Source: an uncultured Actinomycetales bacterium
Lineage (GTDB): Bacteria > Actinomycetota > Actinomycetes > S36-B12
Reading direction: 5' to 3'
Assembly: GCA_913063435.1 (NCBI GenBank)
Contig: CAJXYI010000001.1
Location: 1 to 64,000, forward strand
Length of the DNA: 64,000 nt
Positions 24,668-36,294 of this stretch are shown here, in pieces. Numbering within the stretch: the stretch's first letter is position 1; the number at the start of each line of letters is the position of its first letter. The notes under the pieces are model-generated. The model saw only the letters and a program-made list of their open reading frames with translations. It searched no databases and was not told the DNA's origin. Position numbers and translations under genes: made by a program.

Positions 24668-25549
24668 CTACGGATGCACCCGGGACGAAGTTTTTTCCTT
24701 CGCCCCCTCCAGGTCCCACCAGATCGTGGCCAGGCGTCGGAGAGTGCCGCGATCGGCGGCCGTGACCGCCTCAGCGATCTCGTCTGCGCGGTCGACCGGC
24801 AGGCACAGGCGGACGCAGGTGGCCTCGGCCTGTGCGCGGGGATCGAGGGCGGTCCGCTCGGTGACGTCATCGAATTCGATCAGGTGTGCGTCATAGCCGG
24901 CCTCGCGGATGATCGCCAGGGCGTCATCGGCGGTGGGTGACGTGGGGCGGTCGAGGTCCCAGAACTGCTTCCACAGTGGGTTCATCCAGGTCAGGGGGTG
25001 GCGCGTGGGGAGCTCGAGGACGACGCGGCGGTGAGCGTGCTCGCTCAGGGCCTGGACGAATCCGGCCAGGTCGGGCACGTTGTAGGCGACGTGGTGGCAC
25101 ACGACGACATCGGCGATCGGCGTGCGTGGGGCCGCCTCGGGCCAGTCACCCAGGATCTCGGTGTGGACGACACCGCGCTGGTCTGCGGTGGCGGCGAAGG
25201 CCTCGAGCATGCCCTGCTGATGATCGACTCCGATCACCGAACCGGCCGGGGGGACGAGGGCGAAGGCAGCCCGGCCGCCACCGCAACCGACGTCGAGCAC
25301 GCTGCCGTTTTCTGGGCCACCTTCGAGTAGCGCGTCGCGCGCTGCGGAGTGCGACGGGGAGTCGGGAACGGGGCCGTCGGGGGCGAGGAACTGCGCGACG
25401 GGATGGATCCAGGGGTTTGCCGGGGCCTGGGCCATGATCTCGTCCGGGATCGCCCAGGCCGCCAGATCCTGCGCCCACCTCTGCTGGATGGTGAGTGGGT
25501 CGTTCCGGTCGGCGCTCCGGCGGGCGGTGGTGGTTCGTTCGTCGGACAT
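24668..25549 (-). CDS. Class I SAM-dependent methyltransferase
   Basis: GSVLDVGCGGGRAAFALVPPAGSVIGVDHQQGML motif I; VVCHHVAYNVPDLAGFV. Confidence 0.88.
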   Translation of the reverse strand: MSDERTTTARRSADRNDPLTIQQRWAQDLAAWAIPDEIMAQAPANPWIHPVAQFLAPDGPVPDSPSHSAARDALLEGGPENGSVLDVGCGGGRAAFALVPPAGSVIGVDHQQGMLEAFAATADQRGVVHTEILGDWPEAAPRTPIADVVVCHHVAYNVPDLAGFVQALSEHAHRRVVLELPTRHPLTWMNPLWKQFWDLDRPTSPTADDALAIIREAGYDAHLIEFDDVTERTALDPRAQAEATCVRLCLPVDRADEIAEAVTAADRGTLRRLATIWWDLEGAKEKTSSRVHP

Positions 25550-25603: not shown

Positions 25604-25645
25604 CCGTGATGCATCTATCGAACATCTGTACGATAAGCATCACGG
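25604..25645. promoter_or_regulatory. LexA/SOS-box-like operator nested in a longer dyad
   Basis: TCGAACATCTGTACGA at 25618-25633 (one mismatch to the actinobacterial TCGAAC-N4-GTTCGA type box) inside CCGTGATGC...GCATCACGG. Confidence 0.75.
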
Positions 25646-25675: not shown

Positions 25676-25996
25676 ATGGCTGCTCCCGCCGCCACCCGTC
25701 AGCATTCGACGGCTCAGCATTCGAGCGGTCAGCACGCGATCGTCGAGCGATGCGCATCCGATGGCGCGCCCCAGCAGTATCGCGCGGGGGGCCGACACTA
25801 CGTGGTGACCGAGGTGCACGGGCACTGGGTCACCGGCACCCCGTGGTGGTTGACCGGCCAGGACGTCGACACCCACACCTGGCGGGTGACGGTCGCTGCC
25901 GACTCCCCGCGAGGTTCCCGCGGCTCCGGCCGCGTGGTCGAACTGCGGGCTACCGGCAGCCACTGGCAGCTCACCCGCGTGGGAGGTGCCCGATGA
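25676..25996 (+). CDS. DUF6504-like protein
   Basis: GRHYVVTEVHGHWVTGTPWWLTGQDVDTHTWRVTVAA...VVELRATGSHWQLTRV; upstream of the DnaE2-like gene as in other actinobacteria. Confidence 0.72.
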   Translation: MAAPAATRQHSTAQHSSGQHAIVERCASDGAPQQYRAGGRHYVVTEVHGHWVTGTPWWLTGQDVDTHTWRVTVAADSPRGSRGSGRVVELRATGSHWQLTRVGGAR

Positions 25997-26376
25997 GCGC
26001 CCCGACCGACCTGCTCATCGCGGCCCGGCGCGGATTGCTCGAAGCGACCCTCGCCGACACCGCGGCTGCCCGCTACGCCGCCGCCCACCTAGCCGCGCTG
26101 CGCGCTGCTGCCGCAGTCCTCGCTGCGCGGGCTCGACCGAACGGGCGCCGGTCTGGCCCGCGCAGCGTCTGGCTGCTGCTGCCGCGCGTGGCTCCCGAAC
26201 TCACCGAGTGGGCCCAGTTCTTCGCCGCCGGATCAGCCAAACGATCCCTGGCCGGTGCGGGTGTCGCGGTGGTGAGCATGCGCGAGGCCGACGACCTGTT
26301 GCGCGATGCGCAGGCCTTCTGCGACCTCGTGGCCTCCACGGTCCCGGGGCAGGCGGTTCTGCCGGCGACAGGATGA
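25993..26376 (+). CDS. SAV_6107 family HEPN domain-containing protein
   Basis: LLIAARRGLLEATLADTAAARYAAAHLAALRAAAAVLAARARP; small helical protein between DUF6504 and dnaE2; ATGA overlap. Confidence 0.78.
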   Translation: MSAPTDLLIAARRGLLEATLADTAAARYAAAHLAALRAAAAVLAARARPNGRRSGPRSVWLLLPRVAPELTEWAQFFAAGSAKRSLAGAGVAVVSMREADDLLRDAQAFCDLVASTVPGQAVLPATG

Positions 26377-31311: not shown

Positions 31312-31740
31312 ATGCCGCTTTCGGAGCATGAGCAGCGACTGCTAGAGCAGATGGAGCAGGCGCTGTATGCCGAGGATCCGAAGTTCGCGACCTCGCTGCG
31401 CAGCAATTCCAGTGGTCGGGCGAGTCGAGGCCGAGCAGCACTCGGCGTCATCGTCTTTCTCGTCGGTGTAGCCACCCTGCTCGGTGGTGCCATCATCCCG
31501 CTGATCCCTCTCGGGGTCGCGGGCTTCGCCATCATGGTTCTCGGCGCGCTCTTGGCCTATCTCGGTCTGCGGCCCGGTCCGGCGGTGGCGCAAACAGAAG
31601 CCGAGCCGACAGGCGATGCTGCCCCCGGCGGGCAAGCCCCGGGCCGACCGAGCAAATCCAAGCCGGCCGGTGGGTTCATGGACCGTCTGGAAGATCGCTG
31701 GCAGCGCCGACGCGAACAGGGACCCGGCCAGGATCTGTGA
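31312..31740 (+). CDS. DUF3040 domain-containing membrane protein
   Basis: MPLSEHEQRLLEQMEQALYAEDPKFATSLR followed by two TM helices. Confidence 0.92.
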   Translation: MPLSEHEQRLLEQMEQALYAEDPKFATSLRSNSSGRASRGRAALGVIVFLVGVATLLGGAIIPLIPLGVAGFAIMVLGALLAYLGLRPGPAVAQTEAEPTGDAAPGGQAPGRPSKSKPAGGFMDRLEDRWQRRREQGPGQDL

Positions 31741-34060
31741 CATCTGCGGTTGCCTTGCGCAACAGCCCCCTTGTCGACGGAACGCCTCCCAGCTTCCACC
31801 ACGAAGCGAGACGCTGTAGTGGGGGCTGCGACCTGCTGATCGACCGCTGCACTCGAGACAACGCGTCATTCAGGTGCGACGGCGAGGGTGTGTCGGCCGG
31901 TGTCAGAGTCGGGGCGTACCGGGAGTGCTCCAACCACCACAGCAGCCGCAGCAGGGATTCCCAGCCGGCCTGATCGAAGGCGACCTCTCGACGCAGCCAT
32001 CCCGCATAATCCCGGGGAGTGAACTCCTGGGAGGAGCCGATCCCGAAACGACGTGCGGTGTCGTTGACCTCCTGCCATGCACCCTCGATCCGTTCAGCGG
32101 GGACAGGTGCGTGAGTGCGACGGCGACGACGCAACCAGCGCAGGACGAAGGGGCCGGCAATAGCACCGGTGAGGACGATGATGGCGATGAGCGGCCACAC
32201 CGGAGGCAACGACGCCGACGGCGCGGCATTCGCACCCGGATCGATATCCACCGGTGGTGGAATCGGTGGTGCTGTCGGCTGCGGATCGGACTGGGGAGTG
32301 CGATCGGGAACATCGGAATACGACGGTGCGACTACTCCCGCATCCGTTCCATCGCTACGCGGGGTTGGTTCGAACCACACCCATCCCAGGCCGTCGAACC
32401 ACAGTTCCGGCCACGCGTGAGCGTTGCGTCCCCGCACCGACCACGTGCCGTCGGCATTGCGGGTGCCAGAGGTGAAGCCGACGTTCACCCGAGCGGGAAT
32501 CCCCAGGCTGCGGGCCATGAGCGCCATCGAGGCGGCGAACTGTTCGCAGTATCCGATCCGCTCGGTGAGGAAAGCCGATACCGGGTTGTCACCGCCGCCA
32601 GCGTCGAGACTGGTGCTGTACGCGAAACCACCGTCGACGGTGAACCACTTCTCCAGTGCCAGGGCCTGACGGTAGGGCGATGCTTCCCCTGCGGTCACCT
32701 GTCGAGCCAGGTCGGCGACCATGGGCGACAGATCAGCGGGCAGCTCGGTCAAGGCCGCGAGTTCAGCCGGCGGTGGACCGGTTGCCGAGCGCAGCTGGGC
32801 GCGGGTGGGTCGGATGTCGTACGCCGACACGGTGTAGGTGGCGCCGGCAGCCGAGACATCCTGACTGCTCACGGTCCGAGTCGCTGGGTCCCAGGCCCAC
32901 TGGTCACTGAGATCACCTCGCACGCTCGTGGCGGCGAAGGGAACGGGAAGTTGTCGATTCGTCAGGTCTGCGACCGAGAGGGTGTAGCTGTGTACGGAGA
33001 CATCAGTGCCCTCGTCTCGGACCGGAGGCGGCAGCGGTTGAGTGAGGGGCAGCCTGACGGCGGACTCGCTCGAGCGCCAGGTGACCCCATCGAACTCCGT
33101 CAACGTCACCATGCGCAGATAACCGGGATCGTCGTCATCTGTGGTGTAGCGCACGACCTCCTGGCTGGAGTTGTTGACCAGGCTGCGGCGCAAGGACACG
33201 AAGGGATCCAGGCTCACCGGTCCGTCACCGCTCGCGGTTCCGCCGGCGATGGCAGCGCCGCGACCGGTACCCCAGACCGGTTCGCTGAGCCCGGGGACAG
33301 CCAGCGGAGCCACCACGGCGATGGCGATAGCCGCACCAGCGGCGGCGATCACGCGTGGATCGAAACCCAGGGATCGAGCCGGTCGTTGATGTGCCTGCGG
33401 ACCAGCGAAGCGACGGGATGCAGTCGAGGTACGCGAGGCGAACGGCCCCCAGGACAGGATGGTGGCCCGGGCATCGACGAGAAGCAGGGTCAGCCATCCG
33501 CTCGCACCGATCGGAAGCAGCCACCACGGCAGCCCGTTGGGAAGGATCGCGATCGGTAGGGAGGCCAGCACGAGCAACGGCGCCGCGGCGATGGCGGGCA
33601 GCCGCAGGGTGACGCCCAGGGCGTCCACGGCGATAGCGATGACCCCGACCCCGCCCGCAGCGAGGAGCATGAGTTCGGGACTCGTGGGAACCGGGGGGAT
33701 GAGGACCTCGGCCTCGCTGATACCGGCCTGCGCCAAGGACCGCAGGGCATCGATGGCGGTGGGGCCGGGCAGTACCCACCATGTTGCTGAGGGAAGGACG
33801 AACAGCCAGGTGAGCATCGTCACCCACGCCAGTGCGGCAGCCACCGGATGAGCGACCGCGGGAAGGCCGAGGAACCGAAGCAGGACGCCGGTTGCGGTGA
33901 TGGCGGCAACGACCAGCAGGACCGGGATGAGGAACGAGGCGCTGTCGAAGAGGGGAAGCAGCGTCAAGGATGCGGTCATCGTGGCGAGTGCTGCGGCCAA
34001 GGACGACCCCAGCCGGGCTCGACGCCATCGTGGGGTGGAAGCGGTGGCAGGGGGAGTCAT
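31676..34060 (-). CDS. TgpA-like transglutaminase-domain membrane protein
   Basis: N-terminal TM helices; ITGA core: DNPVSAFLTERIGYCEQFAASMALMARSLGIPARVNVGFTSGTRNADGTWSVRGRNAHAWPELWFDGLGWVWFEPTPR. Confidence 0.93.
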   Translation of the reverse strand: MTPPATASTPRWRRARLGSSLAAALATMTASLTLLPLFDSASFLIPVLLVVAAITATGVLLRFLGLPAVAHPVAAALAWVTMLTWLFVLPSATWWVLPGPTAIDALRSLAQAGISEAEVLIPPVPTSPELMLLAAGGVGVIAIAVDALGVTLRLPAIAAAPLLVLASLPIAILPNGLPWWLLPIGASGWLTLLLVDARATILSWGPFASRTSTASRRFAGPQAHQRPARSLGFDPRVIAAAGAAIAIAVVAPLAVPGLSEPVWGTGRGAAIAGGTASGDGPVSLDPFVSLRRSLVNNSSQEVVRYTTDDDDPGYLRMVTLTEFDGVTWRSSESAVRLPLTQPLPPPVRDEGTDVSVHSYTLSVADLTNRQLPVPFAATSVRGDLSDQWAWDPATRTVSSQDVSAAGATYTVSAYDIRPTRAQLRSATGPPPAELAALTELPADLSPMVADLARQVTAGEASPYRQALALEKWFTVDGGFAYSTSLDAGGGDNPVSAFLTERIGYCEQFAASMALMARSLGIPARVNVGFTSGTRNADGTWSVRGRNAHAWPELWFDGLGWVWFEPTPRSDGTDAGVVAPSYSDVPDRTPQSDPQPTAPPIPPPVDIDPGANAAPSASLPPVWPLIAIIVLTGAIAGPFVLRWLRRRRRTHAPVPAERIEGAWQEVNDTARRFGIGSSQEFTPRDYAGWLRREVAFDQAGWESLLRLLWWLEHSRYAPTLTPADTPSPSHLNDALSRVQRSISRSQPPLQRLASWWKLGGVPSTRGLLRKATADVTDPGRVPVRVGAASDLPDGP

Positions 34061-35328
34061 CGGCGCCCGGCCATGGCATCGGTGGTGATCTCCCGCAGGC
34101 AATCCGCCCAGGCGTGCGACACGACGTCTGAGTTCGCAGCCTCGAATCGGGGGAGCGCGGCGGCCTGCCATCGTCCCGTGCGCGCCGCCTGCAGCGCGCT
34201 CGCGATGCTGCTTTCCTCGCCGGACCATTCGGCCGGATCGATCACCAAGGCGACACCCAGATCGGCACTGCGCCGTGGGTGCTGGGTGGACAGCAGGCTC
34301 TCGATGTCCCCGGTCGCCGCCACGATAGCGACGACAAAATCGGCGTTCCACGTCTGCGTCGTCGCCTGCTGGCCGGTGAGATTGTCTCGCGTGTCGATGA
34401 CAGCCAGAGTGTCCAGGAGCAATGCCTGTCCCTCCCAGCCGCTCAGGCGAGATGTGAGCGGTTTGCCATCGAGGCCGACCACACTGATGTCGAATCCCGA
34501 ATTCAGAAGGTGTACACCGACACTGGCGGCCGCGCTCAGTGCGTTCTCAAACGACGCGTGGGGCCCTGTGCCGGCATGAGCGCTGCGCCGGTCGTCGATG
34601 ATGATGACAGCCTGTCGAGTCCAGGGTTGCTCTTCTCGTCGCACCATCATCTGCCCCGCGCGTGCGCTCGCTCGCCAGTGCACGCGGCGCAGGTCATCGC
34701 CCACGCGGTATTCGCGTGGAACGACGTCGTCGTCCCCGCGGGCTGCGAGTGCTGCCAGGGATGCATCGCCTCGTCCGAGATGCTCCGCATGGGGACTTCC
34801 CGCTGTCAGGGGCACCACCCGTGGCGTGACCAGGACGGCATCGACACCTCGAAATGATCGACGCAGGCGAACGAGGCCGAGGGGGTCGGGAGCGATCACC
34901 GAGAGAGGGCCGATGGTGAAGGCACCGCGACGTTGTGGGTGCACAGTCGTCACGATCCGACGCTGTTCGCCGGGGGCGAGAGCCGGGGTGATGCGGCGCG
35001 TGGTCTGACCCATGGAGGCAGGGATCGCATCGGCGAGCAGCAGGGTCGATGTGCGCCGGTGACCGACGTTCTCGATCGTGAGGATCAGTTCGGCCTGGTC
35101 ACCGACGCAGATATTCCGGTCGGTTACCTCACGGGTGCAGCCCAGGGCGAAACCCGTGCGTGCGACGAGTGCCAGGGACACCAGTGGCAGGAGGATGGCG
35201 ACGAGGCCTACGCTGAGCAAGTCGCGTTGACCAGACAGAACAGCGCCCATACCCAAGCCCAGGCCCACCGCGATGAGGCCCTTACCTCGCAGGGTCAGGC
35301 TGTTGACGAGGACGCGCGCGCGCAACAT
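34057..35328 (-). CDS. DUF58 domain-containing protein
   Basis: PREYRVGDDLRRVHWRASARAGQMMVRREEQP; between MoxR and transglutaminase genes. Confidence 0.93.
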   Translation of the reverse strand: MLRARVLVNSLTLRGKGLIAVGLGLGMGAVLSGQRDLLSVGLVAILLPLVSLALVARTGFALGCTREVTDRNICVGDQAELILTIENVGHRRTSTLLLADAIPASMGQTTRRITPALAPGEQRRIVTTVHPQRRGAFTIGPLSVIAPDPLGLVRLRRSFRGVDAVLVTPRVVPLTAGSPHAEHLGRGDASLAALAARGDDDVVPREYRVGDDLRRVHWRASARAGQMMVRREEQPWTRQAVIIIDDRRSAHAGTGPHASFENALSAAASVGVHLLNSGFDISVVGLDGKPLTSRLSGWEGQALLLDTLAVIDTRDNLTGQQATTQTWNADFVVAIVAATGDIESLLSTQHPRRSADLGVALVIDPAEWSGEESSIASALQAARTGRWQAAALPRFEAANSDVVSHAWADCLREITTDAMAGRR

Positions 35329-36294
35329 CTATCCGGCCGGCACCGGCACGGTTTGCAGGAGCGAGGAGATGACCTGGGTGGAGTCGATGCGCGACACCTG
35401 CGCGTCGGTCGTCGTGATCAGCCGATGCGCCAGAACCGGTGCGGCGAGTTTCTGCACGTCATCGGGAAGGACGTAATCGCGCTGGGACAGGGCCGCCTGA
35501 GCTCGCGCCGCGCGCACCAGGTGCAGTGAAGCGCGTGGTGAAGCACCGAGTCGAACCCGTGGATCGGTTCTCGTCGCGTGCACGAGATCCACCACGTAGC
35601 GTTGGACGGCAGGGGATACGTGGACCCCGCGGACGGCGTCGACCATGGCCTGGACATCGGCCGCATCGGCGACCGGTGAGATGTCGGCGAGGGGATCGCT
35701 GCTGCCGTGACCGGTCAGCATCGCCATCTCTGATTCCGCGTCGGGGTATCCCATCGTGATGCGCGCCATGAATCGGTCGCGCTGGGCTTCGGGCAGTGGA
35801 TAGGTGCCTTCCATCTCCGCGGGGTTCTGCGTGGCGATGACCATGAACGGCTGAGCCAGCAGGTAGGTCGTTCCGTCGACGGTGACCTGACCCTCCTCCA
35901 TGCACTCCAGGAGGGCCGATTGTGTTTTCGGTGATGCTCGATTGATCTCATCGCCGATGACGATGTGAGCGAACACGGCTCCTGGCTTGAATTCAAAATC
36001 ACGTGTGTCGGCATTGAACACGCTCACCCCGACGACATCGCTGGGGAGCAGGTCGGGGGTGAACTGGATGCGGCGCACCGAACAGCCGAGGCTGCGAGCG
36101 AGGGATTTGGCCAGCATGGTCTTGCCGACACCGGGCACATCCTCGATCAGGAGGTGCCCCCCGGCGAGCAGCACGATCAGGGCGGTGCGGACGGCATCGG
36201 GCTTGCCTGAGATCACCCCGGACACCGATCGACCGATCTGGGTGACCTGGTCCACGGCGAGCGCTGCGGGTGCCGGCGTCGATGTCGAGGTCAC
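35329..36294 (-). CDS. MoxR family AAA ATPase
   Basis: LLIEDVPGVGKTMLAKSLARSLGCSVRRIQFTPDLLPSDVVGVSVF; EINRASPKTQSALLECMEEGQVTVDG. Confidence 0.95.
   Translation of the reverse strand: MTSTSTPAPAALAVDQVTQIGRSVSGVISGKPDAVRTALIVLLAGGHLLIEDVPGVGKTMLAKSLARSLGCSVRRIQFTPDLLPSDVVGVSVFNADTRDFEFKPGAVFAHIVIGDEINRASPKTQSALLECMEEGQVTVDGTTYLLAQPFMVIATQNPAEMEGTYPLPEAQRDRFMARITMGYPDAESEMAMLTGHGSSDPLADISPVADAADVQAMVDAVRGVHVSPAVQRYVVDLVHATRTDPRVRLGASPRASLHLVRAARAQAALSQRDYVLPDDVQKLAAPVLAHRLITTTDAQVSRIDSTQVISSLLQTVPVPAG

Follow-up and report, generated by a model that had tools for sequence, protein, structure and literature searches.

A HEPN_SAV_6107 gene between a predicted LexA operator and a DnaE2-DinB cassette in an uncultured Actinomycetales bacterium

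The window analysed here is a stretch of 64,000 nucleotides (nt) from an uncultured Actinomycetales bacterium (assembly GCA_913063435.1, contig CAJXYI010000001.1, positions 1 to 64,000). At positions 25993-26376, it carries a small gene whose product is a member of the Pfam family PF18726 (HEPN_SAV_6107), set between a predicted LexA operator and two DNA polymerase genes. An earlier note, made from the DNA letters alone, had described the product as a HEPN-family protein inside a DNA-damage cassette and had read an RYAAAH motif in it as a ribonuclease (RNase) signature. Here, we describe the protein, its operon and its relatives, and we consider what role it may play.

The HEPN gene and its operon

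The open reading frame matches PF18726 with E=3e-33 and a score of 114.7 bits (cut-off 27.2), and the family is single-copy in the window's genome. An AlphaFold (AF2) model built from a 110-sequence alignment has four helices (residues 4-20, 24-46, 59-88, which is broken, and 96-116), with a predicted local distance difference test score (pLDDT) of 89.4 and a predicted template modelling score of 0.82. The model looks like a small soluble bundle of helices, and no membrane segment is obvious in it. Its nearest PDB relatives by Foldseek are 2hsb, 1wol and 7bxo, the first two with a probability of 1.00 each (E-values 0.14 and 0.38), and a sequence profile of the family matches 2hsb (AF0298) with E=1.1e-5. 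Model and profile support a HEPN fold, and the family assignment made in the earlier note stands. C-terminal extensions of the homologues reach at most 59 amino acids (aa), and none was informative as a fusion (Rosetta-stone) partner. Two further identities were considered and rejected: a defence system, for which PADLOC gave one marginal match (E=0.0015), and a mobile origin, as plasmids and phages gave no match at 1e-5.

The gene order in the window is LexA-like box, DUF6504, HEPN, DnaE2 and DinB (Table 1). The stop codon of DUF6504 overlaps the start of HEPN by 4 nt (ATGA), DnaE2 begins 3 nt past HEPN, and 1 nt is shared by the DnaE2 stop and the DinB start. The gene therefore does lie in a DNA-damage cassette, as had been claimed, with the error-prone polymerases directly downstream in the same operon. 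The genome has two DnaE genes, and the copy on contig C70 fits the DnaE finger profile better than the window copy, which would on this comparison be the second, non-replicative DnaE. DinB retains intact HVDMDAFYA and SLDEAFLD motifs and is the sole Y-family (IMS) member in the genome, which is 94% complete. No ImuB was detected in the same assembly; ImuA was not searched for separately.

The DUF6504 protein belongs to a 60-member family upstream of HEPN, other members of which reach 3.5e-22 with the Pfam model. Its structural model is all-beta (pLDDT 83) without a PDB relative, and the family has a match in Caulobacter, a genome having ImuB. Together with its context, these features make it a probable stand-alone ImuB-C. 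A comparison of the DUF6504 profile with the actinobacterial ImuB C-terminus was not significant (E=0.43), and a plasmid search for ImuB returned actinobacterial relatives only, which does not settle the ImuB-C identity.

Outside the cassette, a class I S-adenosylmethionine (SAM) methyltransferase gene (24668-25549, minus strand) is divergent from it; many other genomes have a methyltransferase gene on the same strand between HEPN/DnaE2 and DinB. On the other side, positions 31312-36294 hold DUF3040, transglutaminase-like and MoxR genes; in other actinobacteria, this conserved flank continues to mraZ.

Table 1. Features of the HEPN locus in the window
Feature	Position	Strand	Remarks
Predicted LexA (SOS) operator, TCGAACATCTGTACGA	25618..25633	+	11/12 of TCGAACN4GTTCGA; 42 nt ahead of DUF6504
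DUF6504 (PF20114) protein, 106 aa	25676..25996	+	Pfam E=1.3e-4, just below cut-off for the window copy
HEPN_SAV_6107 protein, 127 aa	25993..26376	+	ATG at 25993, stop at 26376
R27-Y-A-A-A-H32 codons (helix 2)	26071..26088	+	
Canonical HEPN Rx4-6H position, codons 83-89 (KRSLAGA), degenerate	26239..26259	+	Profile alignment to 2hsb (LREESDY)
DnaE2-type DNA polymerase III alpha homologue, 1170 aa	26380..29892	+	Pfam PHP, DNA_pol3_alpha, finger, HHH_6, OB
DinB (Pol IV, Y-family), 436 aa	29892..31202	+	PF00817 1.7e-47; NCBIfam Pol IV
DUF3040 / SCO2097-family protein, conserved flank	31312..31740	+	NF058603 2.8e-43

The RYAAAH motif and the canonical HEPN site

The motif is present as R27-Y-A-A-A-H32. 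Its occurrence in one sequence is weakly informative, because shuffles of the protein's composition (13 Arg, 1 His) often yield such motifs: Rx4H in 10% and Rx4-6H in 27%. Conservation was assessed in an alignment of 131 homologues, one per genome, built from PF18726 coordinates. Position 27 is Arg in 122 (93%) and Lys in 6, position 28 is Tyr in 109 and Phe in 21, and position 32 is His in 110 (84%), Tyr in 16 and Gln in 5. The conservation of R27 and H32 is well above chance, yet not invariant, and the check that the earlier note had proposed, retention of the Arg and His across SAV_6107 homologues, was largely passed. Other conserved residues are R37 (119), W60 (121), E72 (116), W73 (119), F77 (129), R84 (127, 97%), R97 (117), D100 (116), R104 (113) and F109 (129). 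Position 88 is Glu in 79% of the homologues and Gly in the window protein.

HEPN proteins carry the canonical Rx4-6H signature where helix 3 ends (PMC3710099). R27 and H32 both lie in the unbroken helix 24-46, five residues apart, or about 140 degrees round an ideal helix. In the profile alignment with 2hsb, R84 aligns with the canonical Arg and H32 with a helix-2 Tyr. The family sequence at the canonical site is [KR]RxxxEA, and that of the window protein is KRSLAGA: the canonical His/Tyr is replaced by A89, the polar residue following the Arg is also gone, and in the window copy the acid is lost as well. The helix-3 end thus carries no Rx4-6H, and SAV_6107 was scored 'No' for this motif in Table 1 of PMC3710099. 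Members of window-type operons with an SOS box have Gln or Tyr at position 32 (L102, L159, L088, L098), so His32 seems dispensable in these operons. On the helix-2 position, the substitution pattern and the published score, we rejected RYAAAH as the HEPN RNase site, and an Rx4H RNase site at R27/H32 is unlikely on both sequence and model. The reading of the motif as a nuclease signature was not borne out.

Ten weak PF18726 matches from other classes of the phylum served as an outgroup. All ten have Tyr at position 32, and the group shows KR[HN]xxDY at the canonical site and a conserved HH between helices 2 and 3; this HH, a feature of AF0298-like relatives, is gone from the SOS-linked family. 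At the four outgroup loci inspected (L162, L164, L165, L166), a gene with a helix-turn-helix (HTH) and a nucleotidyltransferase (MNT) domain lies directly upstream of HEPN, and the three upstream genes scanned match NTP_transf_2 with E down to 3e-9. These loci hold MNT-HEPN pairs whose HEPN proteins are apparent relatives of the SOS-linked family, and the latter looks as if it derived from an MNT-paired HEPN with loss of the catalytic residues.

The same residues can be read in another way, as an SOS-induced RNase or toxin whose site was kept, or was rebuilt from R84 with R27, H32 and E88, and which slows growth during repair by cleaving RNA. All four positions are well conserved, and from the order of the helices, the start of helix 2, the end of helix 3 and the start of helix 4 should share one end of the bundle. 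Alternative active sites have been described in AF0298-like HEPN proteins (PMC3710099), AF0298 is the closest PDB relative, and the outgroup pairs resemble known toxin-antitoxin pairs. However, the window operon has DUF6504, DnaE2 and DinB as neighbours of HEPN and no MNT antitoxin gene, H32 gives way to Gln or Tyr in operon members, the AF0298-like HH is absent, the window copy has G88, and the family was scored as motif-lacking in PMC3710099. We regard this explanation as improbable.

SOS boxes and gene order across relatives

The sequence TCGAACN4GTTCGA was sought up to 1 kilobase (kb) upstream of the HEPN domain start at 121 loci. A perfect box was found in 78 of them, and a box with at most one mismatch in 93. 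Perfect boxes are strongly concentrated there, with 78 in 120 kb of upstream sequence and 5 in the remaining 1,216 kb of these loci. In a hold-out of 17 loci fetched afterwards, 15 had a perfect box, all 17 had one with at most one mismatch, and there was no perfect box elsewhere. Both genomes of the window's genus (L090 and L091) have a perfect 12/12 box at the equivalent place.

Boxes occur in most architectures. They were perfect in 46 of the 57 DUF6504-HEPN-DnaE2 loci (53 with at most one mismatch), in all three HEPN-DnaE2 loci where DUF6504 was not seen, and in all three loci with DUF6504 and HEPN only. Ten of the 11 loci with HEPN and DinB lacking DnaE2 had a perfect box, and none of these was added by allowing a mismatch. 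Among loci without a polymerase, 11 of 19 were perfect and 17 had at most one mismatch; among those neighbouring ImuA-ImuB-DnaE2, the figures were 5 and 7 of 7, and in L129 and L138, where the order is ImuA-ImuB-DnaE2-HEPN, HEPN has its own box besides the one near ImuA. No box, perfect or with one mismatch, was found in 21 short, mostly Streptomyces-type (genus g3) loci, or in the outgroup (0/10). Because the box is conserved in polymerase-free loci, HEPN appears to be a DNA-damage-response gene in its own right.

The window box by itself is weak evidence, because the genome has 15 one-mismatch sites and no perfect site, and the window has about as many two-mismatch matches as expected by chance; it is the relatives that carry the argument. 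By sequence, a predicted LexA operator lies in the promoter region, at 11/12 in the window and 12/12 in most relatives, and LexA probably controls the HEPN unit in vivo. A further site, TCGTACGTATGTTCGA, lies at L196 2452-2467 (genome G000, contig C74), immediately ahead of an open frame located at the end of the contig. Read on the reverse strand, it has TCGAACAT..GTACGA in common with the window box, which suggests a genome-specific variant of the LexA box.

Published regulons bear on this point. In Corynebacterium glutamicum, cg2381 is a conserved hypothetical member of the LexA regulon, induced by ciprofloxacin (M=3.86); among the induced genes of unknown function, it ranks directly after divS, a division suppressor (PMC5055667). 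C. glutamicum was the only control genome with PF18726, and mraZ there is cg2378. Since the family is present in that genome and HEPN lies near mraZ in L156-L158, we infer that cg2381 is its PF18726 gene. A table of selected LexA regulon members in Streptomyces venezuelae lists dnaE2-dinP and no HEPN-type gene (PMC9380542), which agrees with the missing box in Streptomyces-type loci.

Across the relatives, DnaE2, DinB and DUF3040 lie downstream of HEPN on the same strand. DUF6504 is directly upstream in about 60 loci, DnaE2 starts a median of 18.5 nt past HEPN, and DUF3040 is conserved in orientation and order at 66 of 127 loci. The ad hoc gene calls contained opposite-strand shadows, which made them unreliable in places, and they served solely to find candidate proteins; matches to frame w26076 in the synteny count represent a shadow frame and were disregarded. 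ImuA, ImuB and DnaE2 come after HEPN in L128, L141 and L144; in L129, L136 and L138, HEPN lies downstream of ImuB-DnaE2. The Streptomyces-type loci (L008-L016, L021, L040-L062, L118; genus g3, probably Streptomyces) keep the conserved HEPN residues, and a methyltransferase gene and DUF3040 come next after HEPN there. The genomes sampled from genus g4 gave no HEPN gene.

Other neighbours raise the idea of an SOS cell-cycle checkpoint factor, whose target would be division or cell-wall synthesis and not the polymerases. The order is HEPN-DUF3040-mraZ in L156 and L157 and methyltransferase-DUF3040-...-MraZ in many loci, and it is this linkage to DUF3040 and the mraZ/dcw region that suggests the idea. 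The rank of cg2381 next to divS and the SOS boxes in loci that have no adjoining polymerase also speak for it. Against this, the commonest architecture couples HEPN to DUF6504 and DnaE2 and not to division genes, ImuA-ImuB-DnaE2 cassettes occur on either side of HEPN, and the modelled protein would be a soluble bundle. The checkpoint explanation seems to us an outside chance.

HEPN could also be a passenger with no functional tie to mutagenesis: an old gene of the chromosome, next to which DnaE2 genes were inserted because its SOS promoter suited them. A HEPN-methyltransferase-DinB-DUF3040 block does exist without DnaE2, and DnaE2 genes occur without HEPN. A mere passenger would, however, sit poorly with a box of its own conserved in polymerase-free loci, with two mutasome types adjoining it and with tight operon junctions, and we consider this doubtful.

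A proposed accessory role and comparison with known systems

We propose, with a probability of about one half, that this SOS-regulated, catalytically degenerate HEPN protein is a small binding or regulatory accessory of DnaE2-based translesion synthesis in actinobacteria. On DNA damage, LexA would be released from the operator, and the probable ImuB-C, HEPN and DnaE2, with DinB in the window, would then be made together. The four-helix domain would most likely bind a protein partner in the mutasome or nucleic acid through the conserved basic residues R27, R37, K83-R84 and R97. The enrichment of SOS boxes, their presence without an adjacent DnaE2, the tight operons, the two kinds of adjoining mutasome, cg2381 and the loss of the catalytic site all point this way. 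The earlier note had offered a repurposed binding domain as its alternative, and that option agrees with this proposal.

Several observations weigh against the proposal. Streptomyces-type loci keep the conserved residues with neither an SOS box (0/21) nor an adjoining polymerase, and 27 of 31 HEPN-less genomes still carry two DnaE genes. DnaE2 is equally common with HEPN, since 23 of 27 genomes with HEPN but no directly adjoining DnaE2 have at least two DnaE genes, and we rejected HEPN as an obligatory DnaE2 partner for this reason. Two small genomes (G418, G433) have DUF6504 near DnaE2 and no HEPN that we could find. The block belongs to a region of the chromosome whose conservation is ancient, so part of the linkage may be inherited synteny, and the neighbour counts are not independent, the genomes being related. 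G418 and G433, together with G448 (1.3-1.4 Mb, genus g277), have a DUF6504-DnaE2 gap of about 2 kb and no HEPN gene that we found, and are natural HEPN-lacking variants.

A bolder and more tentative version of the accessory role would make the protein a new class of mutasome subunit: a catalytically dead HEPN, derived from a nucleotidyltransferase-paired one, that belongs to the core SOS genes of Actinomycetia and serves DnaE2 as a regulator or scaffold, for example by bridging ImuB-C or ImuB, DnaE2 and RecA. A HEPN gene under a LexA-type operator across Actinomycetia, in operons with two kinds of DnaE2 cassette, is a specific and testable candidate component, and it would represent an apparent recruitment of a toxin-type fold to DNA-damage tolerance.

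The window cassette resembles the putative DnaE2B-PolY-[ImuB-C]-RecA mutasome of the Tessaracoccus type (PMC12926913) in having a second DnaE, an intact PolY (DinB) and no detected ImuB, and the all-beta DUF6504 model without PDB relatives is as that paper describes for ImuB-C. It differs in the HEPN gene between DUF6504 and DnaE2; HEPN is not mentioned in the main text of that survey. With the mycobacterial ImuA-ImuB-DnaE2 mutasome it shares an SOS-regulated DnaE2 cassette, which HEPN adjoins in L128, L129, L138, L141, L144 and others, but the window has an intact DinB in the Y-family place and no ImuB. A link between HEPN and SOS or DnaE2 is absent from the searched text of PMC12926913 and PMC3710099, and a full-text literature search for HEPN with DinB and DnaE2 returned nothing, which is no proof of novelty. 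MNT-HEPN systems share the fold, the nearest PDB relatives and the distant relatives downstream of an HTH-MNT gene, whereas the window HEPN has no MNT partner, has lost the catalytic residues and has gained an SOS operator. The closest published description is that of Anantharaman 2013 (PMC3710099), in which PF18726 is HEPN-M SAV_6107, tabulated without operon or function; our protein agrees with it in fold, length, absence of the canonical motif and actinobacterial distribution. To that account, we add an SOS box, a shared operon with DUF6504 and DnaE2, and a conserved helix-2 RYxxAH.
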